Origin: Hypoxylon rubiginosum
Lineage: Eukaryota > Ascomycota > Sordariomycetes > Xylariales > Hypoxylaceae
Length of the DNA stretch: 64,000 nt
Reading direction: 5' to 3'
Assembly (NCBI GenBank): GCA_902806565.1
Contig: CADCXA010000066.1
Coordinates: forward strand, 1,054,001-1,118,000
Positions 2,787 to 41,500 of this stretch are shown here, piece by piece (position 1 is the stretch's first letter; each line of letters starts with the position of its first letter). The translations under genes and the position numbers were made by a program. The notes below the pieces were generated by a model. It searched no databases, was not told the origin of the DNA, and saw nothing but the letters and a program-made list of their open reading frames with translations.

Positions 2787-3488
2787 TGCTGTTGCTAGAT
2801 AGCTAGGTACTTATGATAGGCGAATGTCGAATTATGAGTACGTAGTCTCTAGTAAGGGACGTTAGTATCGCTGAGTACAATAACAGATGAGAAATGGAGA
2901 GATTGATATTGTAGATGGCTCGCAGTAGACGTGTTGAATTTTAGTAAAGGCAGAGCTCGAAAAGAGGTGGGGAGATGTGCTATGTGGAGACGTGCTAGGT
3001 AGGGTGGAATGTGTTGTGAGGTGTGCCTGACGATCACAGGCAGAAGAGTGAAAATTTTCGGATGGTTAAAGGTTTGGTGGGCAATGTCAGTATAGGAATT
3101 TGTTATGCGAAGAAGAATCTAGAGGAAAATCTGCAGGTAGAAGGATATACCTACCTACCTGGTATGTTATGAGGGAAGTGGCACACTTATCGACGGAGGA
3201 CTTGTTAATATTAGAAACAGTTGCTACGAAAGAGATCTTGCAAGAGAGACCACATAATACCGCCGAAGAGATAAGCTTAGGTACCTAGGTAGGTATCGAC
3301 TTCGCAAGTCTTTTGAAGATGTTTGTTTACTACCAGTTAAATCAAGTAAGCCAGTCTTCCTGCCTCCTACCTAGGTACCTACCTAGGTAGCTGAAGGCCA
3401 AACGGCCTCCCGAGACTCCAGACGCTCCCAATGCGACAAAGCCAATTAATGATAAAATTCCGGCCCGGTTCCAGATGAAGGTGCTACT
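2787..3488. other. Spacer between the two HMG-box relics; TACCTAGGTA palindromes
   Basis: No gene seen. The spacer carries two copies of a recurring palindrome: GGTACCTAGGTAGGTA at 3279-3294 and CTACCTAGGTACCTACCTAGGTAG at 3368-3391. The same motif recurs in other intergenic stretches of this window. Confidence 0.5.
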
Positions 3489-4905
3489 AGAGCTCGCCCA
3501 TATAGTTATCCATAAACTGATCTATATCGAAGTTATCGATTTCGGCAAAAGCTCGTCGATAGACGGATCGAGGGGGGCATTGAAGCTGTTGGCAGAAGGG
3601 CCGTTTACTAGGAAGTCATCGAGACGTAAGTTTGTGTAATGGTCTTCTCAGCGGACGACAGGAGCCTCTTGGGGGACGACAGGAACCTGTTGTTGGATGG
3701 CAGGAGCAGGCTGCTAGACGATACCACTAGGCTAGCGAGTTCCTGTTATCAGTGTTTGTCCGCGTCAAGGCTCCACAGTGTATGTCGGCGGGGACGTGCT
3801 TTGTGAGGGTGCCTGCCCTGTTTTTCGCAGTCCTTCTGGACTTATTGGAGCTGGTTATCTTCCTCTTACTTCGCTCCTTGCCTTTCGATGAGCTTGGCTC
3901 TACGAGGATTCGTCCGTATAGCTCGGGAAGGTTATACTGTGGAAACCCCCTAGAGCTACCTTCTGGGACTAGTTAGATAATGCCAAGGTTCTCCCTTTCC
4001 AACGGCTGGTGGTGTTCTCGCACCAGTTCTTCTATTTTGAGGTAGCCGGGGATTCCTCTAGTCCGATATACACGCCTTTTCCTTCTTCAAGTCAGCCTCG
4101 CTTCCCTTTTTCTTGGGCTTGCACTTGTAGAAAGGATAGATAATTACATACCGTCTCTTTCCCTCGGCAGCCGTGCGCTCGAAGAATTCCTTCTGCACGG
4201 CTGGCAGGCGATAGTGCCATTGGTCACCGAGAATCTGAGCTGTCCATATAGTTAGCCAGCAAACCCATGTGACGATGTCGTATTTTTTTTAACTTGCAGA
4301 CCGCTGTGAGAGAATCGATTTACCTTTGGCCTCGTTGTTATGAACTGCCGGTATAAAACAAAACTATGTCTAGTACACGGGGACTGGCTCTAGCGAGGGC
4401 CCGCAGGATACTCATTCGTTTTCAGGCTCACTGTTCGTCGGCACGCCGCCCTGAATCTCACTTCCGGTGCCGACAGTGATGCCGTGTTCTCCGTTAGAGG
4501 CTGAGGAACTGATATGTTTACCATCGTCGATTGTGAAGTTTTGAGAGTCACCACTACTATAACAAGCGCCAAGGCTATCACGAAGAGAGGCGGAAGTGCC
4601 CCGTGTGGTTCCGCGCTCGGGGGGTGGCTGAAACGTCGAGGGTCGTGATGGCAGGAGACATCATGTTAGAAGCCGGCGGCACTGTCCCGTTTGAGAAAGC
4701 CATGCTATGATTTTAATACCTAGATAATTAGAGGCGGGTTGGTTATAAAGAGACCCAACATAAGCTCGCTTGAGTGTGGACAAGCCTCGATCCTCGTGGT
4801 TGTTGGTGACGCCCAGAACAATTATGTTTTGGTGCGTCGAGCCAAGGAAAGATTGACCACACTTGCCCAGAGCCCGAAAAATGTAAGTTACCTAGAGTCG
4901 AAAGG
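3489..4905 (-). pseudogene. HMG-box gene relic, copy 2, heavily decayed
   Basis: This is a second, more degraded copy of the same HMG-box gene in the same orientation. Read on the minus strand, the matching blocks follow the same order as in copy 1: IEACPHSSELMLGLF near 4790-4745 (copy 1: VEACLRSGEAMLGLF), a remnant of the first half of the box near 4350-4290, QILGDQWHYRLPAVQKEFFE at about 4235-4180, then PGYLKIEELVREHHQPLE and LPELYGRILVEP in shifted frames around 4060-3890. The C-terminus ends in FDIDQFMDNYMGEL with a stop at about 3489. At least three frame changes and several stops break it. The protein-level match is clear but far from identical, so the duplication is old or RIP has erased much of it. 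Confidence 0.68.
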
Positions 4906-22132: not shown

Positions 22133-24266
22133 ATGCCCATGTAAGTCGTACCCAAGAGTCAGACTGAACAAACAACAACAGTCTGTCCGTTAGACCGATC
22201 TCTAGTCGAAACTTGCTGGTTGACCTGTAATTCTTGCTACAGGCTTAAGGATCCCTCCAAAAAGTACAAGAACTTTACGCCTCTGAATCTCCCGAATCGT
22301 CAATGGCCATCTAAGTCCATCCAGAAAGCTCCGAGGTGGCTCGCTACCGACTTAAGAGATGGAAACCAGAGCTTGGTTGACCCAATGGTTTGTCACACGG
22401 TATTTCTAGAATTTGCGAACATGGTCTGACAATTTTTACCGTAGAATGGTGACGAGAAATGGAGATTCTTCAAGATGTTAGTCGAGCTTGGCTATAAGGA
22501 GATTGAAGTGTCCTTCCCCTCAGCCTCCCAAACCGATTTCGACTTTACCAGACGCCTTGTCGAGACTCCTGGCGCAGTTCCTGATGACGTCTGCTTACAA
22601 GTCCTCGCACCATGCCGCGAAGACCTCATCCGCCGTACCGTCGACTCCCTCAAAGGAACCAAGAAGGCTATCCTACACCTTTACCTCGCAACGAGCGAGT
22701 GCTTTCGGCGCATTGTATTCGGATTCAGCGAAGAAGAGAGCCTCGAGCGGGCGGTAGCATGTGCCAAGTATGCTCGCTCCATCACTAAAGACGACCCGGC
22801 ACAGGCCGGTACGGAATGGGCTTTCGAATTCAGCCCGGAGACCTTCTCCGACACCAGCCCCGAATTCGTGATTCGTGTTTGCGAGGCTGTCAAAGCCGCC
22901 TGGGAGCCTACGGTGGAGAATCCCATCATATTCAATCTTCCAGCCACAGTCGAGATGGCGACGCCAAATGTCTATGCCGACCAAATCGAGTACTTCTGCA
23001 CCCACATCAGCGAGCGGGAAAAGATATGTGTCTCCCTCCACCCGCATAACGACCGGGGATGCGCCGTTGCTGCTGCCGAGCTAGCGCAGATGGCGGGAGC
23101 TGACCGCGTGGAGGGGTGCCTCTTCGGAAATGGCGAGCGGACTGGAAATGTCGATCTGGTCACTTTAGCCTTAAATCTCTATACCCAAGGAATTCACCCG
23201 AATATTGACTTTTCCGATCTCGGCCGTGTCGTCGACACAGTCGAAATTTGTAACAAGATTCCCGTTCATCCTAGGGCACCATACGGCGGATCCCTTGTCG
23301 TATGTGCCTTTAGTGGTTCGCACCAAGACGCCATCAAGAAAGGGTTCGTACAACGGGAGAGAGATGGCAAATCGTACGAAGAGGAATGGCAGATTCCATA
23401 TCTGCCTCTCGACCCACAGGATATCGGCCGAACATACGAAGCCATTATCCGTGTCAACTCGCAAAGCGGCAAGGGAGGTGCTGCCTGGATTATCCTACGC
23501 AAGCTTAACCTCGACCTCCCCCGGGGTCTTCAAATCGCATTCAGCAAAGTGGTGCAGAAGAAGGCCGATGAACTGGGCAGGGAGCTCCTGTCAGCCGAAA
23601 TTGCCGACTTGTTCGAGCGAACGTATTTCCTCCAGGAACACCCCCGATTCAACATAGTCGACTACTCTATCTCGTTTGACCGCTCAACATCTCCGACCCC
23701 TCCGGCAGCCGGCGGGACACAAGACACCAGGAACCTCGCGCGGGTGTTCGAGGGTATTATCGCTATTGACGGTAGGGAATACCAGCTACGAGGTCGGGGG
23801 AATGGACCGATCTCGTCGCTAGCTAACGCTCTGAAAGGTGTGGGAATCGATTTGGATGTCGCCGACTATAAGGAACACGCTATCGGAGGAGGCCGGGAGG
23901 TCAAGGCAGCTACGTATATAGAGTGTACGGCTTCCGGGACGTCACAAAAGGTCTGGGGTGTTGGCATACACGAGGATGTTGTTCAAAGCTCTCTCATAGC
24001 TCTTCTGAGTGCAGCTAGTAACGTAAGTGTTCCGGGCATGCCCGATTTATCCTGACTTCTGTCTAACGAAATTCTTCAAACAGTTCATCTTAAGTCGCCC
24101 TGGGAGCCCGATCCTCTCGAAGCACCCACAGCGTAGCCTCAGTCAGGAGCTGGACCTAAATGGCGCTGGTATCAAGGTGCCGTCCATCTCGAATGGAAAT
24201 GCCACAAGTCATGACGCCCCATCTGAGACAATCCAGGCCTTAGAAGCTAAGGCCAACATTATATGA
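22133..24266 (+). CDS. leuA: 2-Isopropylmalate synthase, first committed step to leucine
   Basis: This enzyme condenses acetyl-CoA with 2-ketoisovalerate. Four exons join in phase: 22133-22140 (only 8 nt), 22243-22387, 22445-24022 and 24084-24266, giving 637 residues, normal for fungal LeuA. The catalytic TIM barrel shows [17 protein letters not shown] (metal and substrate loop), [39 protein letters not shown] (metal-binding HxH) and [19 protein letters not shown]. The C-terminal LeuA regulatory domain for leucine feedback follows, with [22 protein letters not shown] sequence near residue 555. The start exon encodes MPM only, so no mitochondrial presequence is obvious; the form may be cytosolic or use an upstream start. 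The closing exon (residues after LLSAASN) is less conserved. Confidence 0.93.
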
Positions 24267-25361: not shown

Positions 25362-25377
25362 GCCCGGAGTTTACGGA
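25362..25377 (+). repeat. Left 16-bp terminal inverted repeat
   Basis: GCCCGGAGTTTACGGA reads inward here and matches base for base the complement of 37411-37426. The next bases inward (GGGTT here, AAGTT on the right arm) match at three of five positions, so the repeat may extend to about 21 bp with two differences. Confidence 0.65.
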
Positions 25378-25641
25378 GGGTTCTTGTGTCGGGGTCGAAT
25401 GTGTCAATAAATAATTACTAGAATAGGAAGGTTTGCCAAGACCTTGATATGGTTATATACGTATTATTATATTATTGAATAATTTAAATACCTTAGCGTC
25501 CGGTGGCCGGAGCAGCTTAAGCTAAGTAGCCGAGTCTTGTATAATTGAATAAAACAATTGCCAAGACTTTCATATGCCCTTACATATTGTATTATAGTAT
25601 AGGGATTTTGTAAATTTTTATGGCTTATGCGTGCATTACGT

Positions 25642-25765
25642 TATCGGAATCAATTCAACTTCGAAGTGGTCCATGCGTTTTCGGAACCGAACCATTTTCA
25701 AAGTGGCTTGTGCGCTGCTTTGTCGGAGTTGTTTCTCGGAACTGAAATGATACCTTTTCAATATT
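25642..25765. repeat. Three imperfect direct repeats near the left end of the mobile unit
   Basis: Units starting at about 25643 (tcggaatcaattcaacttcg), 25681 (tcggaaccgaaccattttca) and 25735 (tcggaactgaaatgatacc) share TCGGAAYYRA. The first two go on to share CAAAGTGGYYNRTGCG-like sequence. Spacing is about 38 and 55 bases. They lie inside the left inverted repeat and about 400 bases before the HNH gene, so they could be a protein-binding array or a decayed tandem repeat. Confidence 0.45.
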
Positions 25766-26156
25766 AGTATAATACAACCTATTTTAGAAGAGGGTTTGCA
25801 GATTATTACATGCACTCAGTCAATATATTAGGGGGGAAAATTTTCCACTCAATATATTTCTTTTATCAGTTTTGGATTGTTTATCTATTGATTCTGAGGC
25901 TGAATATATTGCAATTGGGGCTTTATTTCATCATGCACCATGTATTCATTTTGGGGAGTTGCTTGTATCTAGTTAGCATTCCTTATCTATATATGTGTAT
26001 ACTAAAGTTCCCCTTTATTCCCACTTTGGTTTCGCTACACCGCCTAGCCTTACTCCCTCTTTTGCCTCTAATCCAACTGTTTTGTTGCTTGTTGCTACCT
26101 GCTCCATTGCCTTTCATACCCTTCCTATCAATCTGCTGCTTGGGCTCTGCGTCGCG

Positions 26157-28221
26157 ATGGAGCCTTACAAGAAGGCCCTACGGAAGATAACATTTCCCTT
26201 CCTAACTCAAATGCCTTTCCCATCTGTTGCCCCTGATATCCTCACCAGCAAGGTTGAGGTTTACCATCCGTACTACGTCGAAGATTCTCCGATGGTAAGC
26301 CTGGCTGCGTCGGATAATGGCTATGTTTTATACAACATCGTCTATTATGCTTGTTGTATTATTGCTTGCAACAAGTGGACTGAAGATGAGGGTCGCGACA
26401 TCGAGAATTTTGACACCCCCTATCTGTCAACTTCTCCCATTCTTGGTGAAGGCCGTTTCCCCATCCCTGAGGATGATTTGTTGCCTGCTGGGACGTATTA
26501 CTTCCAAGTTCCTCCGTATGATCCTGCAAAACCGGGTAGGTATTTTCCTTTCCTCTGGATATCCATTTCTAATAGATGGTTATGTAGGTGGCGTCTACCC
26601 AATTGTTCCCGTCTTCGAGCACTGGCCGTTTCCTCATGACAAAGGTGTGCCAAAGCCCTGGCGATCCCTAGCGAATCTCGAACCGTTCGAACGACATCCA
26701 ATCTCCGCCCTTGATACATTAGCGAGTGACGATATACAGGCGTGGTATTCGACCCTGGCCGTGCAAACCCATGACGAAACGTGTCGGTTTACTGGCAATC
26801 CCAATGGTCTTGATAACGCCCATGTCGTTCCCCAAGCCATGGGCTCGTGGTTTGACATGAACCGTATGCGTCAATATGTTCGCACAGATGTTGGTGTCAT
26901 CATAGACAGCAAGAACAACGCACTCCATCTCAAGACTGACGCGCATCGGTTTTTCGACCGTAACTATTTAGTTATGTTTCCCATGCGCGTGACTGAGACT
27001 GAGACTATTCCAAGTACTGAGAATACGTCTTCGGCTGGAGATGAGCTGCCTGAAGGAAGTGGTCCATCTGAACGAAACGTCTCAGTTCGTCCAAACCGTT
27101 CTTCGCAAATGGGGAGGTTTTCTAACATGAAAGAGAAGGCCAAACAAACTGTCAAGGACATACGCCCAAAAAGACGATCTGATACGGTTCCTGCTGGCCC
27201 CTCTACAACGACTGCTGGCCCCTCTACAACGACTGCTGTTGTGCAATCCGACGTTTCCTATAAACTCGGCTTGCATATGCTTCACCCTCCTACGAAGTCG
27301 GTTTTTGGTGACTGGGTCATGTTCTGCCAATTTCAAAACATTGAATGCTTGCCCATTCGTGGTGTTCCGCCCGAATATTTATTCGCTCGGTTCGCCTGGT
27401 CGCTTTTTTCCCTCCGCACGATGCCAATCTTCTCGGGTAGAAACAAATCGTTCTATGTTCGAGTCCCTATATTCGAGAAACTATCAAGAACCCGGAAATG
27501 GATTTTCAAGAGCGTTAGACCGACGACATTTCTCAAGAAGGTTGACGGTGCCGCGAACCTTCCCGATACTGAGGACCGGGCTCCGAAACGTCCCCTTGAC
27601 CGCGACATCGACCTCGACCTTGACCTTGATACACCGAATAAGAGGCAAGACACCGATCGCGTTAGTGTTACAGGCGGTTCTCCGCACTCCCCAACGGAAA
27701 CCGTCACCGGTGATGATGAGTATCATGAACGTCTTGTTAATGATATGGATCCTGATGATGGTTATGCTTCTGACGAATCCATTTCCAAAGCCAATTTTCT
27801 ACGAGACCAACTTCTTTACTCTACAATGCTGCACCGCACGAGTAGCGATGACGACATATCTGAGAAATCGATGCATTCACAGCGGTCAATCGTGGAGGCG
27901 CCTCTTTTCCAGCAGGAACAACTCGTTTTCTCTGGCATGCTGCACAGCGCGAGTGACGACACCATGTCTGATGAGTCGTTACCTTCGCAGCGCTCAAGCG
28001 TTGATGCGTCTGATTCAGGATTGTCTCGTCATACGCTTCCCAGCAGTGATGTAAATAGCGGTAGTGAGAAGGAAGACGAAAATAAACCTGATCCTGGACG
28101 GGTTGCAACTTATGAGGGACCTCTAAATTCAACCACTAGAGGCGTGAAGACTACTGGCGACTTGAACCGTGCTGATACGCCGATGCAAGTGGTGTCGCGT
28201 AATATCGTTCATTCGCAGTAG
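26157..28221 (+). CDS. HNH-nuclease domain protein (HNH_2 type), two exons
   Basis: Exon 1 (26157-26535) and exon 2 (26588-28221) join in phase through a 52-bp intron (GTAGGT...ATGTAG), giving 670 residues. The HNH_2-type nuclease core spans about residues 188-250: TCRFTGNPNGLDNAHVVPQA, then NALHLKTDAHRFFDR. The AHVVP and DAHRFFD segments supply the metal- and phosphate-binding histidines and the Asn/His positions expected. The N-terminal 130 residues are unfamiliar, and the C-terminal 350 are low-complexity, acidic and serine-rich. HNH_2 proteins are common and poorly understood in fungi. The gene faces the helicase gene tail to tail across a tandem repeat, and lies inside the inverted repeats, so it may be element cargo or a functional partner. 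Confidence 0.8.
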
Positions 28222-28225
28222 CTTA

Positions 28226-28527
28226 TCTGCTTTCTCGAATGGCTTTAGATGGCAACGAGGTTCTTTTTTTCGGTTAGGTGTTTCTTGTTCTTGGTTTTTT
28301 TCTACTATTTCGCTCTTATATAAAATCGGCTAATTCGGTGTGTTGGAAAAAACCTCTCGGATATTGTTTGTCTGCTTTCTCGAATGGCTTGGGATGGCAA
28401 CAAGGTTTATTTTTTCAGTTAGATGTTTCTTGTTCTCGGTGTTTTTGTCTCATCGTTCTTTTTCCTTGTATTTCGCTCTTATATAAAAAAGGCTAATTCA
28501 GTGTGTTTGAAAAAACCTCTCGGATAC
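28226..28527. repeat. Tandem ~150-bp repeat at the convergent gene ends
   Basis: Unit 1 (28226-28370) and unit 2 (28371-28527) share TCTGCTTTCTCGAATGGC at their start, GGTTAGRTGTTTCTTGTTCT in the middle, and TTTCGCTCTTATATAAAA, GGCTAATTC and GTGTGTT at the end, closing with AAAAAACCTCTCGGATA. Unit 2 has about 12 extra bases. The array fills exactly the gap between the stop codons of the HNH gene and the Rep-helicase gene, so both transcripts should end inside it. It could carry terminators for both strands or a part of the element's 3' end. Confidence 0.8.
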
Positions 28528-28528
28528 T

Positions 28529-31500
28529 TCATTGATTCTGCATATCCTGGCGCCATCTCCTAGTCGTCAAGTCACTCAAATTCGACAATCGATCGATTCC
28601 AAGTTTCATCCGGAAGGGAAGCCGCAACGTCATCCAATGCTGCAGATCAATCGGTGATAATAGATGCATCCCGTGCATTGTCTTAACTCTTGATAGTTGC
28701 ACATATGTTGCGGTGAAGTTCGAACCTTTCTGGTTTTTTCTACTACCCGTTAAGCTCAGGTATGCTTCTCCTAGGCTTTTCCCCTGGGCCTTGTAGTCTG
28801 TCACCGCAAATGTTGGCGTTAGTGTATGGCCAACACGGCCAAACGGCCTGCTTTGGCATGATGCGATGGTTTTAGGGAAAACCGGCAAATACCCTTTCGT
28901 CAGGCTATCTAGTTCAAGTTCCTCCGTGGTGGCAGACGTCAAAAACACTGTTTTAGGGGGGCGTGTTACAACCGAGACTGTCTCGTCTATGTGGTATATG
29001 GTCGACTCGGGATCAGGTATGAAAGCTTTCCCAATGTATTCTGCTCCGTTCACGGTTTTCAGTCCTTGTTTATCGTTCTCGGTGATTCCCAGCGGCATAT
29101 CTCTGGTAAAGACGAGATATGCTGGAACCTTCAACGAGGAGCTATCCATCGTTTCGAATGCTATTGTTAAAGCACCACGGACATCTTTTCTAGGCGTATG
29201 CTTCGAAAAAAATATGTACGCCTTCTGTTTCCTTGCTCTCGCAAACGCAATACATGCTTGTAGGTTAAAAGCGTGCCGCATGGAGTTCAGAGGGATGACG
29301 GCTTTCTTTTCTTGGTCCAAAACGATATCGCTTGGTGCGGAAACCACTCTGCTATTCAACAGATGAGCGTCGTCAACAGTTTGCAAGCCGTTTCGAAGTC
29401 GACTTAGTATACCCGCTAATACCAAATCCGTAGTCCTCATCTGCTGCGTCAAAATTACGACAGATGTGAATTTCAGCCACAACTGGTGTCCCAAGTATTG
29501 TTCGTCGTTGTTCATGACATCGAACAACCGCCCCGTCATCTCGTGACGGCTCTCGCTTGTCGGTTTCCCAGGAAATAGAACAGACCATCCGCTTACAGGC
29601 TCGAATTGATAAAAATCGCCACATAACATCACAATTGGCACTCCTCCGAAATCGTCGTCGTTGTTGTTCCGAGCTTGTTGAAGTTGCATATGAATGTTGT
29701 ACAAATCCTTCCCGGACATCATACTACACTCATCCACGACAAGGATATCAACATCCCTCCAATAGTCCTCCTGCTTTCTAGAGACTTTTCGGCTTTTAGA
29801 TGCGAAAAGTCCAACAGCTGAGTGGATGGTGACCCCCCCAATATGAGAGGCAGCATTTCCAGAAGTAGCTGTAAGTCTGATTCGTCTTCGTTGCCCTTTC
29901 GCTTCTAACGCTTTCACAAGGGTTTTGATCACAACACTTTTTCCAGTCCCACCTTCACCTCCCAGATAATGAAGCAGTTGCGTGCCAGCGATTGCTTCAT
30001 TACACTCTGTGGAAGGTTCAACCTCTTCGGAAGCTTCGCGTTCTCGTGCCCGATCAACGATATCCAAATGTTGAAGAACAATATCCAAAGAGATGGCTTG
30101 TTTTTCATTCAACGTTTCTTCACAAGCGAAAACCTTGCTGACCTCTGCCCAACTTTGGCCTACGTGGTACCTAATGGATAGAGTGGTAGGTCGAATGGTT
30201 GCAAGGTTTCTTCGCTTCCTGCGCTGCAACATAGGTGGATCTTCGTTCATACCAATCAAGTTATCTTGCTCGTCTTGGCTATCCTCGTAAGAACGCTTTC
30301 GGCTTCGTTCATTGGAGCTTTCCCCAGTTTCGAATACATTTGTTTCGACGGTGTCGGTTTTCTCCGATTCTCCTGTAAGTATCCGAAGTATGTTCTCATT
30401 TAAGTCCGCAAGATCTTGCTTCCATATTTTCGTCTGGTCAAGAAGCTGGCTTTTCAAAAGACGTTGTTCTCTCTCGCTCCCTGTAACCACCGTTTCCATA
30501 CGACTCACCAGTTGATGATATAATTCTAATTCGGGTTCGACTGGGAAACTGTCCAGCTTTCGTCCTTCTCGCGATTGCATAAGCCTTGCCATCGAGAACT
30601 CAAAAACACCCACCCCTTTTTGGTTCGTATCAAATAGAATCTTAAAGACACTGGACGAAAAGGCTCTGAATGCTTCCGAATCTTCCGCCACATCAGGTAC
30701 GCCGTCACCATCTTCTTTTGATGAATCGGCCTCTTCACCATCCTCGACATCTACCAACGCATCTTCATCACCAACACGAGAGTTCCAAATTTTCGCGTCT
30801 CGAATGGCATCCTCCTTGGATTTTCGCAAAAGGTTGAAATTTTCGCTACGAAATTTCAAATGCTCCGGAAGCATTGAGTTATGGGCATTCCATATCTCAA
30901 GTGGTGTACCCACACTCTCGCCGATGAAGTCTTCCCACGGTACAAAAAGGCCCAATCGGATAACTTCGCTACGGGCAAAAGTGGTTTCGTCTGTGAAATC
31001 CAAAGGGTAGGGACCTGTTAATAAGGGCGTGCAACGTGACGTCGTTGGTAAAAGACGCTGGCACCATTTCCCCCCCTCCAGGGCCCCGTGAAAAATCGAA
31101 ACGTCTCGACCCTTTCTTCCGCGTGGTTTGGCAACGACTTCAACAAGAGACGCGTACTCGTACAAACACATTTTCCGAAAGTTAGGGCCTCTGCAAAAGT
31201 AACTTTCGAAGATGCTTGGCTTAACACCCACTCGGACATCGAAGGTGACCTTTTCCTCGGTATTGGTTTCCTGATTCCCATCTGAGTCAATCTCTGCAAG
31301 ACGACGAAGATGGGCCCATTGCCGACGCACGGCGTAATATATCGTGTTACAATGTAACCAACGCCAATTGGATTCTGAACAAAAGTAGGTGTCGAAACCT
31401 AACAAATGGTTGACAACATCGATGGAAGACAACTCACGCTCCGAAAAGATACGATTCGCGATGCGGACCATCAACCCTTGGGCGATCTCATCACGATCTT

Positions 31501-34500
31501 GGCTATTAACAAAGTCCGGATTTTTCATAATCGCGTCGAAATGCGCTGCAATCAAAGCCAAGCGTTGATATGTTGGCATATCCAACTTCGTGGCGTAATT
31601 GGTGGTGTAGTACAGCAGAGACAAGGCTTGCGATCGGGTGAAAATTAACGCATAATCATGATTATGTCTTAATGCCGCTGCGATGACCTTGTTCCACCGA
31701 CTGCAGCTTTTTGCCTTTCGTTTTATCTGGAGCACGGCATTCTCATCAAAATGAGTACGGGGGACAAGCTTCCAAGGCCAGCCGAAGCGACAGCGTTTCA
31801 CGCCTTTCTTACCCCCTTTGCCTTGATTGTATTTGAAGCACGTCGCCGTGCATTTATGCACTTGCGCGTAGCTGGCCACGAAATCTGCCTCAAGTTCCCA
31901 TTCTTGTTCCATACGTTCCAAATCCATCTGAAGATCTTTGGACAAGAACAGTCGATCATGACCACCTCGAATTCGGGGACCAACGATTTCAACGTTGAAA
32001 TCTTCCTGGAAATGTTCGTCCACCCAGCGAAAAAAGTCGTCCATTTCCTGCTGGTCGTCTCTCGCAATCAAATCAGGGATGAAAGTTTCCAGGCCAATGT
32101 TACCAAAAAACCAAAAAAAACCGTGGACGTGAAAGGCTCCCCGACCGTTCGTTTCAATAACTCCAAAAAATGTGTCAAGAGGACCGAACGCGCCGTCTTT
32201 GCTGGGGATACGTGCAATTTCCTCAAAAAATGCGTTCATGTGTTTATGAAACCATAACACGGCCATGACAGGATCCTGGTTAATCTCCTTCACCATTACG
32301 CGCTTCTCCTCCAGAAGACGTCTTTCAATGTTGCGTTTGATACGTTGAAGATATCGCGAACTGCGGAAGGCACGACCCATTTTTATCCGAACAGGGTTCG
32401 ACATATCGTTCGGATTGATGGTAAACCATATCGCCGGCATGCCCCGATTCACAATCAAGCTTTTGATTTTGTCGCGTTGCTGTACTTTCTCTTCACTGGA
32501 CAGAGGCTGCTGTCTCCCAAATACTGAAACCTCCCGAAGCAATTTGCGCATGTTCTTGTTGCTAATTGGTTTGTGATTCTTACATTCGTTACTGGCGTCC
32601 AACAACTGTTCCTTGGTGATGGTATCGCTAATTCGTCGTACATCAGAAAACGACTTTTTGGAAACTTGTGCTCTGCTAATCCTTGCACTATTGTTTCGAA
32701 TGATTCGGTTGAAAACAAGAAAAGGAAAGACAGGATGTGTGGCGGCGACGCCACCGTGCTGGCGCAACTTGATTGAAGCCCATCTAGGTACGTTATTTAG
32801 CTTAGCCACGACAAAGAGGATGTGTGATGAAAAACTTACGTCTTCAGACTAAAATTCCACTCGCGGTGCTTCTCCCGCTCTTCCACAGTCGCAACTGGTC
32901 CTCCCCACCCGTACGGCAGAACCTTGATGAAAATGGAAGCAAAATAATGAGGATTAAGTGGTGACAAAAAGTTATTCCCTAACTTGACATGGACATATGG
33001 TTCACCGCTCGTGGTGTGTTCAGCGGATATCTTCGTCGAATCAGGCTCTTCACTGACGGATTCCCTGTTTGGCTGAACAGTCGTATCTTCAGCCAAAAGA
33101 CACTGCTGAATGAACTGGATCTTTTCGGCGTCGTCCGCTCGACCATCCAGTGAAGGGAAAAATCCGGAAGACGTTACAGAAGACAAAATGTCTTGACAGG
33201 CAGTATCTTCAGAAGAATCGCCCTCTATGACATCGAACAAAGGTTCTTCCTCTACCTCACGGATAATATCCAGTCGATCTTCTTCATCGATCGCGCTATC
33301 TTCGTCTTCATCCTCGTCTTCACAATATGGACCAATATATGGGTGTAACGGATTGTACTCGCCAGTTTCGAGGGATTCCGAATTCTCAGAAACTGTCTGG
33401 TCCGGGGCAGAGGCAACAGGGTTGTTGACGTCAACCTCTTGGCGCGACGACGTGACGTTATCGTTGTCATCCAACGTCGGTTCCTGATTCCCAGGACGAG
33501 GCACATACCCAGCACGTTCCGCGGCCTCCTCTTCCACATCATCAATACGAGTAATTCTCGACATGACATCCGGCATCAATATTTCATCCTCATCTGCCCA
33601 CATCTGCCAGAAGGTATTATCAACAGTGACGTCTCGGTAGAGATGGTTGGTGGCGAGGAGAAAAGCTAATGTCCTCTCCATAAGATCCTTTCGAAGACCA
33701 AGGACTGGCAAAAGGTCTCTCTTCTGAGGTTCCTCTCGACTGCACCACGTAACGTGAAGATGTCCCCAAATGGTCTCAAGCTTCTGAGGAAGAATCTTTG
33801 TAACGGCTGAAACATCGTTCGCGAGGACTGTGAAGTGTCCTGTAACTTTACGATATGCTGCGCTCGAGGGATGGTTCGTTTCCGGATCCAACATCAACTT
33901 GCTAACGAGACCAAATGCGACGGCAGGAGCGAGAAAACGTTCTTCGAGAGGACGAAGGTCTTCTAAGAAAGATGGGAATAAATGCATGCAAGGTACCCTC
34001 AACATGCTCAACCGACAGTATGCAGGCACCTTGTTTTGCTCAAGCTGGAGAGAACACGTCTTGCAGACCATGACAGTCTTCGTATCATGCGAGAAACAAT
34101 CCGAACAATCAAGACGACATTCGTTTTGGCCAGGCATCGATGACATAGGTATACGCAAACGACCAAGTAAAGAAGGGGGAAGGGATTCCCACAATCTTAT
34201 CTCCAAATCTTCAGGAGCACATTGTACGAGACACAAACGACACCATTCAGTCAACATGGTACTGGGATCGGTCGTCCTAATCGTGAAGTTCGATATGAGA
34301 GTTGCTTTGTGCAGACTAGGGACGGGCCGCAAAAAGGTTCGATCGAGAGAGGCGTTCTTCTTTTCTTGATATTCCTCAGCATAGGAAGCCATGGTACGGT
34401 CTACAACCTGACGTCGCATATCATCGTCGGTCATCTCAAGTTCATGTCTAAAACCATTAGAAACAACCGAGTGGGCCTTTTCAGAAGATACATACCCAGC

Positions 34501-34638
34501 TACCGTGCTGCGATTGCCCGGCTTTGGAACCTTTGGAACAGCACGATACCTCCCTACAGATGCCATCGATATATCCAAAAGATTTCGCTTAGGCTCCGTA
34601 CGCCTGTTCTTGGTAACTCTGAAATCCAGTCTCGACAT
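28529..34638 (-). CDS. Helitron Rep-helicase (RepHel), full length
   Basis: This is the rolling-circle transposase of a Helitron. Exon 1 (34638-32840) and exon 2 (32783-28529) join through a 56-bp intron (GTAAGT...CCTAG) to give 2017 residues. Exon 1 carries the DUF6570-type N-terminal region, with CRLCLVQC, a Cys pair array (CSDCF, CKTCS) and an acidic linker. The Helitron helicase-like Rep nuclease follows (about 600-1000): the metal-binding HUH motif is FHVHGFF at about 818-820, and the two-tyrosine motif is YYTTNYATK at about 991-999. The C-terminal PIF1-type SF1 helicase has Walker A GEGGTGKS (about 1542-1549), Walker B VVDECSM (about 1613), QMRTT and TDYKAQGKS. All catalytic motifs are intact. 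I chose the ATG at 34638; reading further upstream offers only a TTG. Confidence 0.93.
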
Positions 34639-35816
34639 GTTGGTAATATAACACAAGACAAAGACGAATACGAATCTATCCTAGGTTTCAAACGTCGATA
34701 TCGTGAGTAGCACCTCACAGCACCAGCTTTGAACAGTGCCATCATCGAAAAAGGGGCAGCACAAATTATTCAACCGAAGATGAAAAAAATATCACTAAAA
34801 CGAGTACATCAAGCAAAGACGAAAGCTGTACATTTGGACGGATACTGTACACGCCAAGACAACAAGAGTAGAGCAATGGAGTCTGATAAACCGACCTGTC
34901 GAAATCATCGGAGTCATAATAGAGCATCTCCGTCGAAAACAACGCATCGATATTGAAGGTATTCACCTACCCGTCTTGCAGACGGGAGCGGCAGCACACG
35001 GATGGACGAGATAGCCTCAACCCCCTTATCCGATTGGTAACAAAAAATGGCTTCCATCAGCAAGACCCACATCACACTTCTGTCTGTTTGCGATTGATTG
35101 TGGAAATCCATCTCCAATGACGCATAAGCTATCCTAACACGGCAATCCACGCAGACGAAGCCTCAATAAAACCAAAAGGCGTTATGTCGGTTGCCGTTTT
35201 CCAGGCAGTGAAGAAGTTGCCTTAGTCGAAATCAGTTTAGTGCAAAAAAATTCAGCCGCAAAAGTTGGCCGCAGACGTTGCTATCCGTTCCGCAAGGCCG
35301 GCGTATCTCATATCGTTACACAGCAAACGGAAAGGATTGGTTCAGACAAATTCACCTTAGAACGCCGAGTTGGAGGCAACAATATAGGCAACACGGGATG
35401 CCTACAGACACCGACGATGCCAATACAGTCATCGCCGATGTCAATACGGACATCGCCGAAAACCCGAGCCTATCAGGTCGAGAAAATCCAAAACGGCTCC
35501 GAAATAAGGACCTCAACGAAGTCACTAAACAGTATAGGCAGCCATAATGCTATTATGCGGAAACAATTACCAATCGAGACAATAACACACAGTGACATGA
35601 ACTTTGAGAACCGATGGCGGCCATGGAAGCGCAATGTGTATATTAGGCACCTAAAATCCTCCACAACGAACTTATTCACAGCTTGCCAACCTCGACTCAA
35701 CTCACACACACTTTGCACACATCTTCAACACCATTGTACCATTCTTCAACACCATTCTACATCTCTTCCAAATCCCGAAGCCTTTCCAAGGAACCCGTTA
35801 CACGACATAATCTACG
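34639..35816. promoter_or_regulatory. Divergent promoter region between Rep-helicase and the third element gene
   Basis: About 1.2 kb separates the two divergent start codons. Overlapping frames here (for example 35240-35941 plus strand) lack family features and overlap the next gene, so I do not call them. Direct CACACTTTGCACACATCTTCAACACCATT-like C/A-rich leader sequence precedes the ATG at 35817, with ATTCTTCAACACCATT repeated at 35723-35755. The right half may contain the element's own 5' terminus if the third gene lies outside it. Confidence 0.4.
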
Positions 35817-37277
35817 ATGTCTTCCATTCCCAATACACCTACTCGCTCCCAGCACAGCAACACAAAAGCTGTCTCTGGATCAGGTCTCCATGTAAACTTC
35901 ACTACCGCAGTTGCCAGATTCGAAAAAATCCTCCGAGATGACCAGTATATCAAATTCGGCACTGCAATCATGACTGTCTGTGTCGTAGCATCCGGCGCTA
36001 TCACTTCTACCTCCCTCAACGTCAGGAAGTTCTTTTGTGAATCCCAAATGGTATTGACTGCTCACGTTTTTTCTATGGGGGACTCCCACTTCGATGAAGA
36101 CGAAGTAATCTCATTAGGTGGGAATCTTGCACCATGGGCATTCAAAACCGGACCAAGAGGGAACGTTGAATTTAATGACACTTGGCACACACTACTGGGG
36201 ACGTCGCTATCCAACATACAACGGTAAGCACTGACAACTCTAACAACCATATCATAAATCAACCTAACATAATAGACTACCAAACCTACAAATTGTAGAT
36301 ACAGATAGCGTTCCAATCCAAACAGAATTTATCGACTGTACCTTTTGGAGCCGGATCCGTACAACACCAGACCCTGCACTTCTACGAATAGTCCCAGACG
36401 ACCTCCAAGCTCTCCTCCAGAACGGTGCCTTCGCTGAAGTTCAATTCTACCTAAACCGAAGCAGCCAGACGCCAAACTTGCCCAAGACCGGTGTCTACCA
36501 CTTCTACGTTTACATATTCTTTGACGACTCCTCACGACGGAGACATTCATGGGTAGTGGACAAGACAACAAACAATGTAAGAATCAAAGACGAACAGTAC
36601 GTCTATTGTAGCGGCCGAATCCACGGACAACTTTCAACAGACTGCATCGAACAAGTAGGTAATGAACCTGGCTCCTCCGACGAGCATAAAGAGCGTTGCC
36701 CTATCCACGTCATAATACCCGGGGAAGATTTTCGTCCAGTGGGATCTCCAACCCAGTCCCAATCCTTCGCCCTGAACGCCTCCCCTTCCACATCTAACGG
36801 AAGCATTCGCGATAAACTTGCACAATCAATGAGGGCGTCCAAAAAACAAACTTCAGGTAGTCCCAAGAACAAACAACCTGAATATCCTGTCTTGCCTCAG
36901 ATACCTGAAAACTCAAAACAGAAGACCACAAGTCCTTTGAAGAAGCGGACCCATAACGAACAATCATCAATTTCAGACGCTGAAAAGGAAAAGATGTTTG
37001 ATTTGACGGAATTTGAGTCTAGTACCGAGGAAGATGATAACCTAACACCTGAAGGGCAAATCACGGACGAAGCCAATACGAGCGCAGAGGTTCCAAACGA
37101 CCAGGACAAAGGCAAAGGCAAAAATAGGTATGACACCCAAAAGTAGTAAAACCTACTAGCATTTAAAGAGTGATTTCCCTGACAGTTATATGTGATAGAG
37201 CTGACCCGATTCAAGATTCTTCTGGGGATGAAGAGGAACGGCGACTACGTAGCGGAAAGCGAAACAAGCGAGGCTAA
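35817..37277 (+). CDS. Element gene of unknown family, possible OB-fold-like protein, three exons
   Basis: Three exons fit in phase: 35817-36223, 36276-37127 and 37199-37277, giving 445 residues. The last exon is inferred from a GTATGA donor and a TAG acceptor, and adds a basic tail (RRLRSGKRNKRG) that looks like a nuclear signal. I do not recognise the family. Residues 1-250 look globular and rich in beta-type sequence, including FIDCTFWSRIRT, GVYHFYVYIFFDD and YVYCSGRIHG. The last of these recalls the closing strand of OB-fold single-strand-binding proteins. Residues 250-445 are disordered, rich in S, K, E and D. Some plant and animal Helitrons encode RPA-like proteins, so an ssDNA-binding accessory is a reasonable guess, but nothing proves it. 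The gene is divergent to Rep-helicase and lies within the inverted repeats. Confidence 0.7.
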
Positions 37278-37410
37278 CTAAAAGGCACAAGATAGCCATG
37301 ATGATTATGATATTTATGAGGTATATTTCTTATTAAATTTTGTCATAAGGCCAAATAAAAAGTGTGTATCTCAGAGTATGATTTCTTAGACACGTGATCG
37401 GATTTAACTT

Positions 37411-37426
37411 TCCGTAAACTCCGGGC
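37411..37426 (-). repeat. Right 16-bp terminal inverted repeat
   Basis: TCCGTAAACTCCGGGC is the exact complement of 25362-25377. It lies 134 bases after the stop of the third element gene and is followed outward by TACTGTGCCGCCC. The outward sequence differs from that on the left, as expected if the repeat marks the element edge. Confidence 0.65.
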
Positions 37427-38585
37427 TACTGTGCCGCCCAGGGGGTGGCCTTGCAATGAGAAGGTTAGTGCCTAGGCTCAGGGGCGAATTGCTGTCTTAC
37501 CCCTTATTTGCATAAGATTATACTTTAGGTACATACTTAAGGACATCAGATACAATGCTTGAATGGCTACAATATCTTAAACCTACATAAGGAGTATTAT
37601 ACACTTTGGCCTTTGCACGTGTTAAATATAATATATGTGCTAGGTATAGGTACCTGTCAAGTTAGCTCACCGCCCGCAATCTTTCTTCCCACCGTGCACA
37701 CCTCTATTTTTTATGCAATTGACTCCAGTGCGGTAGCGTCTCGAGAAAATAATAGAAGGTTCCTTTGGTTGATCAAGACTTCAGACTCACGGCTCACTTC
37801 GATACCTGGACTCAACCAAGTCAACTCAATACGCACTGATTCTTCTTTCTTTCTCTCAAGTGACCAGGTCAGATTTGTGAAAGACGCAAGTGGCAGCAAT
37901 ACAAACAGATAGGTATACATATACACGGTACAATACACGCAAGTAACAGTAACTTGAAACCCCTCTAACGCGTTGCTCAGGTCAAGGTCTCTTCTAGCAA
38001 ATTCGTCACTTTCTGGTTCTGGTTACCCTAGTACCTCTTACCTATTGATTTTGGAGGGGGTTTGCCGGCTCGTGGCTCGTGATTGTCAACAAAATAAAAA
38101 GGGACCCGCTGCATCACTCCGCCTACCTCGTTAGGTTTATTAGGGAACCAGAGAAAAAAAAAACCGTCGCTACTGGCGCAGACCTTGCAGACCTTCTGCC
38201 TATCCACAGACGAACTTCTGCAATTCTGCATTCTGCTTTTTTTTCTCTCGTCTTTTTCTTCCCAAAACCTTTTCTTTTTCTGGAGTTGTCGACTACCTTA
38301 ACTCATAACAGTCCCTTTGCTGTCGGCTCTCAGCCTTAATCACGTCCAAAGAAAAGCATTCTCTTTTTTTGCTAGGCTGCACTACTTTACAAGCACACTT
38401 GGACTTTTCTGTCCGCCACGAAACAAACCCCCCCTTCTTAAATCTACCTAGGTACCCTCTACCTACACCACTACACCACTACACCACTACACTACACCAC
38501 AACTAAACCACCTCAACCTTGAAATCCGACAACCTGGATTCTACATAACAAACCCCAAAGACAAAAGATCTGTTGCGCAGACAAG
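37427..38585. promoter_or_regulatory. KAP95 upstream region
   Basis: No gene over 1.16 kb. The 350 bases before the ATG are rich in CT and then CA tracts (ACTACACCACTACACCACTACAC at about 38465-38492), a usual leader composition in filamentous fungi. A TACCTAGGTA palindrome sits at 38446-38455. Confidence 0.45.
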
Positions 38586-41500
38586 ATGGCTGACAACAGT
38601 GATATCAACACTGTTCTCAGCAACTCGCTGGCCTCAGGTAAGTCATTTCTTTCCATTTCGCATGCTCGTGCCCTCTTCCTACATATCATATTATTTTCTC
38701 GAGCTCTATACTGACCTGAATTCCCCCCTCTTCTTAGACGCGGCTACGCGAACTGGCGCCGAGCAACAGCTTACCCAAGCTGCTGAAAACAATTTTGTAA
38801 GTCCATCGCGATGCTTTTGACACCGTGACCGACTTTGCAATTACTAACCTGTCGCGCTTTGTCTTTAGCCTCTGTATTTAGCAACACTTGTTCAGTCCCT
38901 CGCGGACGAGACTGCCCAGGGCACCATCAGAGTCGCTGCGGGTCTCGCTTTAAAGAACGCCTTCAGCGCCCGCGAATTCCCTCGTCAGCGCGAACTGCAG
39001 GCCAAATGGCTGCAGCAGACGGATCAAGAAACAAAGACTCGCGTCAAGGAGCTTGCCATACAAACTCTCTCATCTAGCAATTCGCAAGCCGGCCAGGCCG
39101 CCGCCCAGGTTATAGCCTCTATTGCCAGCATCGAGCTCCCCAGAAACCAATGGCCCGATCTCCTACAAGTCTTGGTTCAGAACGTTAGCGCTGGCGAGCC
39201 TCATCAGAAGCAGGCTTCCTTGACGTGTATAGGATACATCTGCGAAAGCCAGGATGCCGAGCTGCGAACCTCGCTGATTGGACATTCTAATGCCATTCTG
39301 ACGGCAGTCGTACAGGGCGCTCGCAAAGAAGAGACGAATCTAGAAGTGCGACATTCTGCGATAACTGCGCTTGGTGACTCCCTCGAGTTTGTTGGTAACA
39401 ACTTCAAACATGAAGGCGAGCGCAACTACATTATGCAGGTGGTTTGCGAGGCAACCCAGGCAGATGATGCGCGCATACAACAGGGTGCCTTTGGCTGTCT
39501 CAACCGCATAATGTCTCTCTACTACGAGAACATGCGCTACTATATGGAGAAGGCACTGTTTGGTCTGACGATCCTGGGCATGAAGAATGATGATGAGGAT
39601 GTCGCGAAACTCGCTGTCGAGTTCTGGAGTACCGTGTGCGAGGAGGAAATTAACATTGAGGAAGATAATGTCCAGGTATGTTGTTTTGACCTTGATGAAA
39701 TGAATACGAGACTGACAGAAAGATTTGCATAGGTCGAAACCGCCGATCAGATGCGTCCCTTCTACAACTTCGCCCGTGTTGCGACTAATGAGGTCGTGCC
39801 CACCTTACTGCAACTACTTACCAAGCAGGACGAAGATGCTACGGACGACGAATACAACGTGTCGCGAGCCGCATATCAATGCCTCCAACTTTACGCCCAA
39901 GCTGTCGGGCCAAATATCATTGCGCCGGTTATTGCCTTCGTCGAGCAGCACCTCCGATCCGACGATTGGCATTTCCGAGAAGCCGCTGTAGCCGCCTTCG
40001 GAGCCATTATGGAAGGCCCCGACGAGAAGGTCCTCGAGCCTATAATCAAGCAGGCCCTGCCTATCTTGATCACAATGATGGAGGATAGCTCAACTTTTGT
40101 CAAAGATTCAACGGCCTACGCCTTAGGTCGTATCACCGAAGCTTGCTCGCAAGCTATTGATCCCAACACGCACCTGGATCCTCTGATTCGATCGCTATTT
40201 GCCGGCGTCCACGATTCCAAGATGGCAGCATCCTGCTGTTGGGCACTAATGAACCTAGCGGAGCGCTTCTCGGGTGATTTCGATGCGGCTTCGAACCCCC
40301 TTACGCCTCACTTTAACCAGAGTGTCCAAACTCTCCTCACTGTGACTTCACAAGCTGGCGCAGAGACCGCCGTTCGCACCACTTCTTACGAAGTTCTCGG
40401 CGCATTTGTCCAGCATGCGGCGACGGATAGTTTCCCGTCGATTGCGCAACTGTCTGATGTTATCATCAAGCGACTCGAAGACACTATCCCTATGCAGAGC
40501 CAAGTTGTCAGTATAGAAGATAGGATCGCTTTGGAAGAGATGCAGACAAGTTTGAGCACTGTTCTCCAGGCCATCATCCAGCGACTGGAGAAGGAAATCT
40601 CTCCCCAGGGAGACAGGATTATGCATGTCTCTCTCCAGATCCTCGGTATGGTCGGTGCCAAGTCCAGCGTGCCCGAGTCGATCTTCGCTACGATCAGCGG
40701 ACTGGCGAATGCTATGGAAGACGAATTCGTGAAGTACATGGATGCGTTCTCGCCTTTCCTCTACAATGCACTGGCGAACCAGGAGGAACCCGCTCTTTGC
40801 TCTATGGCTATCGGTCTTGTTAGCGACATCACTCGATCCATGGGCGAACGCAGCCAACCTTACTGCGATAATTTTATGAATTATCTTTTGAATAATCTTA
40901 GGGTTTGTTTTTTTCCAATCTCCTGCTTCTGATTTATTATTACATATAGCACGTTTATGTGTTGGGTTATCATCAACCAGATTTAGTAACTGACAAGATC
41001 CTTACAGAGCCAAACGCTTTCGAACCAGTTTAAGCCGGCCATCCTTCAATGCTTTGGTGACATAGCCAATGCTATTGGTGGCCACTTCGAGACTTATCTG
41101 TCCGTCGTTGCTCAAGTCCTGCAGCAGGCCGCGACCGTCACCGCTGCTCCTGACGGCTCCTACGAGCTCTATGATTATGTCATCTCTTTGCGAGAAGGAA
41201 TTATGGACGCTTGGGGTGGCATCATCGGTGCTATGAAGATAAGCCACAAAGGTAAGTAACCTTGGAAGAACATTGGAAATACAATACTAACCATCGGGAC
41301 AGCCCCAGCGCTTGAGCCATATGTGCAGTCAATCTTCCAGCTGCTGAATATTATCTCCCAAGATATGAACCGCAGCGAGTCTCTCATGCGATCGTGTATG
41401 GGTGTGATCGGGTAAGAATATCGTCTTCACTTTCAAGTACAAGCGCTGACAAACGAAATAGTGACCTAGCTGATGCTTTCCCCAATGGCGAGCTTGCTGA

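Follow-up and report, generated by a model that had tools for sequence, protein, structure and literature searches.

Helitron2 transposons are defined by asymmetric terminal inverted repeats (ATIRs), with the 5'-ATIR 0–2 bp from the end of the element and the 3'-ATIR ~20–30 bp from it, and by a Rep-helicase gene (RepHel) that is sometimes reversed (Bao and Jurka, PMC3627910). In the related Helentrons RepHel is fused to an AP-endonuclease, for which a nicking role has been proposed (PMC4067079), and the acquisition of full-length genes by Helitrons has been called exceptionally rare (PMC6431247). Here, we analyze 64,000 nucleotides of the Hypoxylon rubiginosum genome (assembly GCA_902806565.1, contig CADCXA010000066.1, forward-strand positions 1,054,001 to 1,118,000; hereafter the window), in which a 12,095-bp unit holds an HNH nuclease gene, RepHel and a third gene. 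This unit is very probably a rolling-circle transposon of the Helitron2 type that is autonomous and has been active recently. Its Helitron2 backbone is of a known kind; the presence of a complete HNH gene, separate from RepHel, is apparently unreported, and in the available part of the open-licence PMC literature no paper was found that describes a Helitron with an HNH gene.

Like Helitron2 elements, the unit has asymmetric inverted repeats, a 3' arm ~30 bp from the end and a T at its 5' border, and its RepHel lies on the strand opposite to the 5'–3' direction of the element, as in some members. A hairpin like that of Helitron2 is predicted between the 3' arm and the end, with a folding energy like that of shuffled sequence. 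It differs from them in its longer repeat (16–21 bp versus 8–15 bp), in the lack of a clear 5' hairpin and in two further genes, one of them for an HNH nuclease (PMC3627910). FoHeli3–FoHeli5 of Fusarium oxysporum are similar with respect to size (~9–11 kb) and an inverted repeat of 13–16 bp, and have a degenerate 5' hairpin where weak pairing is predicted here, but end in TGCCT...CTCCTGT (PMC5148889). In FoHeli3 an extra open reading frame (ORF), which has no known domain and is confined to Helitrons, precedes the transposase gene in the opposite orientation; our third gene matches it in position and orientation. HNH is not mentioned in the main text of that paper (PMC5148889). Helentrons share the TT target, the asymmetric ends and short non-autonomous partners, whereas their AP-endonuclease fused to RepHel has no counterpart here, where a separate HNH gene is found instead (PMC4067079). 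Plant, cnidarian and fish Helitrons with RPA likewise encode an additional protein beside RepHel, but the third gene described here lacks any RPA or OB match by sequence (PMC6431247). An HNH-like domain occurs in some effectors of oomycetes and chytrids, and genes of this sort lie near Helitrons in Phytophthora (PMC5289972), a case of proximity and not of an element with an HNH gene.

A 12,095-bp unit copied as one piece

The three genes are bracketed by an inverted repeat with arms that are identical over 16 bp and agree at 19 of 21 positions (90%) over 21 bp. Within the window, the 16-mer occurs with up to three mismatches only at the two arm sites. Such loose matching gives 0.48 expected matches, and 7 of 100 shuffled windows had at least two, so the window alone is no proof of a repeat. 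A search of the genome (48.27 Mb, 70 contigs, here numbered with the prefix C) returned 21 exact matches versus none for the 16-mer read backwards. Twenty of these extend into element sequence, and the flanks of all 21 identify 15 left ends, five right ends and one other. The last, at C24:309382-309400, diverges after 19 bp; it is the end of another family or a chance match and was excluded from the ends. The original prediction of a perfect 16-bp inverted repeat around these three genes was confirmed; its argument that so tight a flanking repeat is unlikely by chance holds on the genome counts, though the window alone does not prove it.

At all five right ends the repeat is followed by TACTGTGCCGCCCAGGGGGTGGCCTTGCAA, slightly altered in the copies on C55 and C29, and then by a T and unrelated DNA. 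Because the copies run 30 bp past the repeat to CTTGCAA, the right boundary is 37456 and not 37426. The repeat had been predicted to bracket the unit exactly, which is correct for the left end at 25362 and falls 30 bp short on the right. The element accordingly starts with GCCCGG, ends with CTTGCAA and has T|T as its target, in place of the Helitron1 hallmarks (5'-TC, CTRR-3' and an A|T target). A T precedes the left end in 18 of 18 cases that continue into the element, as counted with a tolerant pattern over the extracted loci. Of the 22 candidates given by this pattern, four were dropped: two were right ends in reverse reading, one was a chance match in AT-rich sequence, and one, on C32, lies ~700 bp outside the short copy there, is preceded by a T and was not seen to continue into the element. 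The left ends on C32 and C34 (2 of 20 left-end matches) stand outside the pattern count. On the right, a T follows all four matches of a strict pattern and the ends of all 11 short copies, a count from which rows of 222–252 bp, being internal matches of a loose pattern, were excluded. No target duplication beyond the T was seen at the copies read.

A second copy, on the reverse strand at C55:1051448-1063542, is collinear with that in the window along all 12,095 bp and shows not a single indel. The two differ at 4,409 positions, comprising 2,609 C>T and 1,800 G>A changes and no others, which is repeat-induced point mutation (RIP). Since the collinear copy differs in this way alone, the three genes move as one unit. 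RIP has changed 4,409 of the 5,590 cytosines of both strands (CA 90%, CG 79%, CT 74%, CC 70%), lowering the G+C content to 9.8% compared with 46.2% in the window copy. Such extreme RIP, in all dinucleotide contexts, with ~79% of cytosines changed and G+C near 10%, is also seen at loci L025, L027 and L038. Three further long copies, compared over ~9 kb each, have 3,647, 3,713 and 3,584 sites in the RIP direction; substitutions of other kinds number 4, 5 and 9, and gap columns 4, 6 and 46. Reduced to a purine/pyrimidine alphabet, matched blocks of these three copies are 0.998–1.000 identical to the window copy, in blocks chosen by exact 32-letter words, a choice that favours high identity.

Translated searches located HNH, RepHel and the third gene together, with unchanged order and relative strands, at no fewer than nine loci including the window (C55:1051k, C55:222-239k with extra DNA inside, C27:580k, C27:2546k, C25:2183k, C25:2638k, C66:1192k and C16:1073k), all locus counts being lower bounds since the search lists score the best candidates only. 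A full nuclease gene with its intron has therefore been copied along to at least nine places. A search for other copies with the same ends and gene order had been suggested as a check, and the end-to-end copy on C55 answers it; among the copies read, none has an end inside the 28–35 kb interval of the window. All eight loci outside the window are riddled with stops, leaving the window copy as the sole open one found; for five of them RIP was quantified at single-base level, and for the two C27 copies and the C16 copy it is deduced from stops.

Apart from these, the genome contains 11 short copies of ~330–550 bp with both element ends. In a comparison of nine, the left ~240–250 bp are common to eight, the C10 copy having 71 bp, and the right 47 bp to all nine. 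Thus, short non-autonomous copies with the same fixed, asymmetric ends have spread alongside the three-gene unit. Among the extracted loci of this genome, flanks of the nine short copies and of the window copy had no match beyond their own sites that would mark an empty site. At C31:1537747-1552318, both element ends stand 14.57 kb apart around a RIPped interior, in which, over the 9 kb compared, there is no match to the element past the first 249 bp and no ORF of 150 amino acids; a nested insertion has probably split a short copy here. As the copies differ from the open copy almost only by RIP, the burst is recent, and since the RIPped copies derive from a near-identical element, the one in the window either is young, has re-entered the genome or has escaped.

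By analogy with Helitron biology, the HUH nickase of RepHel would nick at the left end (T^GCCCGG) and its PIF1 helicase would unwind the DNA, peeling one strand toward the right end, where peeling would stop at the 3' repeat and hairpin. Insertion would then take place between two Ts, probably via a circular intermediate.

RepHel, the third gene and the HNH gene

RepHel matches the Pfam families Helitron_like_N (PF14214, E 1.6e-30) and PIF1 (PF05970, E 2.3e-18), with DUF6570 upstream in the same gene. It contains the motifs HVH (818), YYTTNYATK (991) and a Walker A (1542), which we take to be signs of an HUH Rep and a PIF1 helicase. No endonuclease, OTU or RPA domain was matched in its two ORFs by Pfam at E 0.1, and the same holds for an AP-endonuclease fused to the C-terminus, the mark of Helentrons in the strict sense. 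The element had been placed on the Helitron2/Helentron side of the Helitrons, which is supported; its anatomy is that of the former, and it is not a Helentron in the strict sense. Elsewhere, at C61:52837-57063 and C61:73215-77441, two RIPped RepHel matches of equal score lie in opposite orientation 16 kb apart, as though they belonged to a large palindrome.

Relatives of the third gene stand upstream of and opposite to RepHel, head-to-head, at 13 loci: the nine family loci and four more (C25:410k/414k, C24:442k/446k, C24:1305k/1309k and C4:12k/8k). In the un-RIPped pair at C25:410k/414k, RepHel is 54% and the third gene 26% identical (alignment A1) to those of the element, with an intron at the matching place. 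No HNH match lies within 15 kb of these four additional pairs, among the matches listed. The third gene, originally described as part of an unusual composite, looks like an old companion of RepHel and not like an odd passenger, since the head-to-head pair also occurs at these four Helitron loci in the absence of HNH. Other RepHel places (for example on C57, C61 and C53) have no third-gene relative among the matches listed, and all nine RepHel matches on C10 and C60 lack one out to 37 kb. Compared with a protein database, alone and aligned with the C25 relative, the third protein had no match among the word-sharing candidates that were scored; Pfam and PDB sequences gave no match worth taking. 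By its look the protein might have an OB fold and resemble RPA, but RPA and OB matches were absent by sequence, and no result so far supports the nucleic-acid binding originally considered for it. A PADLOC search had no match. One Pfam match (E 0.11) to a single member of the third-gene alignment was taken as chance. Single-sequence AlphaFold models of parts of its two main exons (mean pLDDT 34 and 41) were too poor for use.

The HNH gene is complete with one intron, matches HNH_2 (PF13391, E 4.6e-07) and is present at all nine family loci; its seven protein matches are hypothetical proteins of Daldinia, Hypoxylon, Hypomontagnella, Xylaria and Annulohypoxylon. The closest relative in the genome stands free at C60:253839-255870, with 92.2% DNA identity over element positions 714–2940 and a second block at 81% up to element position 3124. 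Its borders are abrupt, the intron is kept and the protein is shortened to 650 amino acids by an early stop; the 4 kb read beside it contain no other element sequence. The ratio of nonsynonymous to synonymous substitution rates (dN/dS) between the two genes is 0.47 (bootstrap 0.30–0.67), with 0.17 in codons 1–262 and 0.66 in the rest. The constraint may have acted in one lineage only. With its N-terminal and HNH part conserved, the gene probably does a job. By eye, a ~100-bp inverted repeat around a small insert is visible upstream of the free HNH gene (L060:250-740), beside an apparent PIF1 helicase end on the other strand.

HNH_2 matches are concentrated on contigs C10 (679 kb) and C60 (397 kb), which hold 20 of 25 in ~2% of the genome length and whose HNH family is large and diverse. 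On these contigs, an HNH relative lies 3' of a third-gene relative, on the same strand and 0.6–1.0 kb away, at three of six third-gene places (C10:100509-103623, C10:123974-126319 and C60:221680-224050), an arrangement reached in none of 2,000 shuffles; no RepHel stands beside these pairs among the matches listed. In the window element, the third gene and HNH are on one strand at opposite ends, so that joining the ends in a circle would give the gene order of these pairs. Since the pairs recur beyond chance, the two genes may be old partners, and HNH is maybe more than a recent capture. The same contigs hold 5 of the 7 Helitron_like_N matches of the genome, a figure that is biased because the family search misses RIPped copies, and both sets of matches are mostly without RIP-type stops; perhaps, C10 and C60 are an accessory compartment spared by RIP.

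What the HNH gene does in the element can be read in three ways. It may be a mere passenger that was picked up from the genome's large HNH family and plays no part in transposition, an account that we hold to be quite plausible if short of probable. The free-standing relative with its abrupt borders and the four RepHel/third-gene pairs devoid of HNH fit this account, while the intact state of the gene and its low dN/dS, particularly in codons 1–262, speak against it (though the constraint may concern one lineage only), and a chance passenger leaves the recurrent HNH/third-gene pairs unexplained.

A second and tentative reading is that the HNH protein is a working part, which would act in trans to nick either the target or the donor DNA, perhaps together with the third protein, as has been proposed for the AP-endonuclease of Helentrons. 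RepHel itself has no endonuclease domain at E 0.1, the HNH gene is intact, constrained and never missing from a family locus, and the C10/C60 pairs have the order expected across joined ends. On the other side, the four loci without HNH have evidently transposed, and Helitron2 elements are not known to need an extra nuclease. Along these lines, HNH and the third protein could conceivably be a module of two genes with a function in the life cycle of this Helitron2 lineage. As separate genes they would correspond to the AP-endonuclease that Helentrons gained by fusion, and rolling-circle transposons would have recruited an endonuclease a second time, independently. The module would then be split between the ends of the linear element and reunited only across the joined ends of the circle. 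The third gene's head-to-head place beside RepHel at 13 loci and its pairing with HNH relatives elsewhere point to a Helitron protein as yet unstudied and make a role of the HNH nuclease testable.

Third, the HNH gene could have travelled the other way, out of the element and onto C60, with loss of all other element sequence there. A single pair of copies gives no direction and thereby leaves room for such a transfer, which we nevertheless regard as unlikely, given the lack of other element sequence in 4 kb beside the C60 gene and the size and diversity of the HNH family on C10 and C60.

Weighing the Helitron2 assignment

Several observations weigh against an autonomous, recently active Helitron2. 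The minimum-energy fold of the 3'-terminal 30 bp is the predicted stem of 7 bp with a 3-nt loop, yet an equally good fold is reached by 60 of 200 shuffles (z -0.38); at the 5' end, predicted pairing is weak and no hairpin is convincing. HNH relatives are numerous away from RepHel. On C10 and C60, four of nine RepHel matches have HNH within 6 kb, two of them tail-to-tail, which is no evidence of linkage because 599 and 315 of 2,000 random placements, respectively, equal these numbers. Furthermore, present activity is inferred from the single open copy.

The perfect repeat would also suit a DNA transposon that moves by cut-and-paste and has ordinary terminal inverted repeats; we consider this very improbable, since no transposase-like Pfam match besides RepHel occurs in the scanned ORFs, the target duplication does not exceed the T, and conserved sequence passes one arm only, by 30 bp. 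That the repeat lies by chance around three unrelated genes has a negligible probability despite the 7 of 100 window shuffles with two or more loose matches, in view of the end-to-end second copy and the 21 exact genome matches versus none in the control.

Features of the element and its surroundings

Features of the Helitron2-type element, in window coordinates
Feature	Position	Strand	Remarks
Whole element	25362..37456		12,095 bp, between T (25361) and T (37457); collinear second copy with other flanks; both ends also at C25:2183214-2195310 (12,097 bp)
5' terminal inverted repeat (5'-ATIR)	25362..25382	+	Very left end; T precedes 18/18 left ends
Left stretch of ~245 bp	25362..25606	+	Common to most short non-autonomous copies
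HNH nuclease gene	26157..28221	+	Exons 26157-26535 and 26588-28221; 670 amino acids; HNH_2 domain 192-254; dN/dS 0.47 versus C60 relative
Two imperfect direct copies (D3 87%, D4 90%)	28223..28526		Between the 3' ends of HNH and RepHel
RepHel	28529..34638	-	Exons 34638-32840 and 32783-28529 (stop included); 2017 amino acids; DUF6570, Helitron_like_N, PIF1-type helicase
Third gene	35817..37277	+	Exons 35817-36223, 36276-37127 and 37169-37277; 455 amino acids; alternative two-exon model ends at 37146
3' inverted repeat arm (3'-ATIR)	37406..37426	-	30 bp inside the right end
3'-terminal 30 bp	37427..37456	+	Predicted hairpin, then CTTGCAA; common to short and long copies

The element is flanked by a gene with 2-isopropylmalate synthase domains (22445-24052) on its left and by a gene with importin-beta and HEAT matches (38869-39729) on its right.

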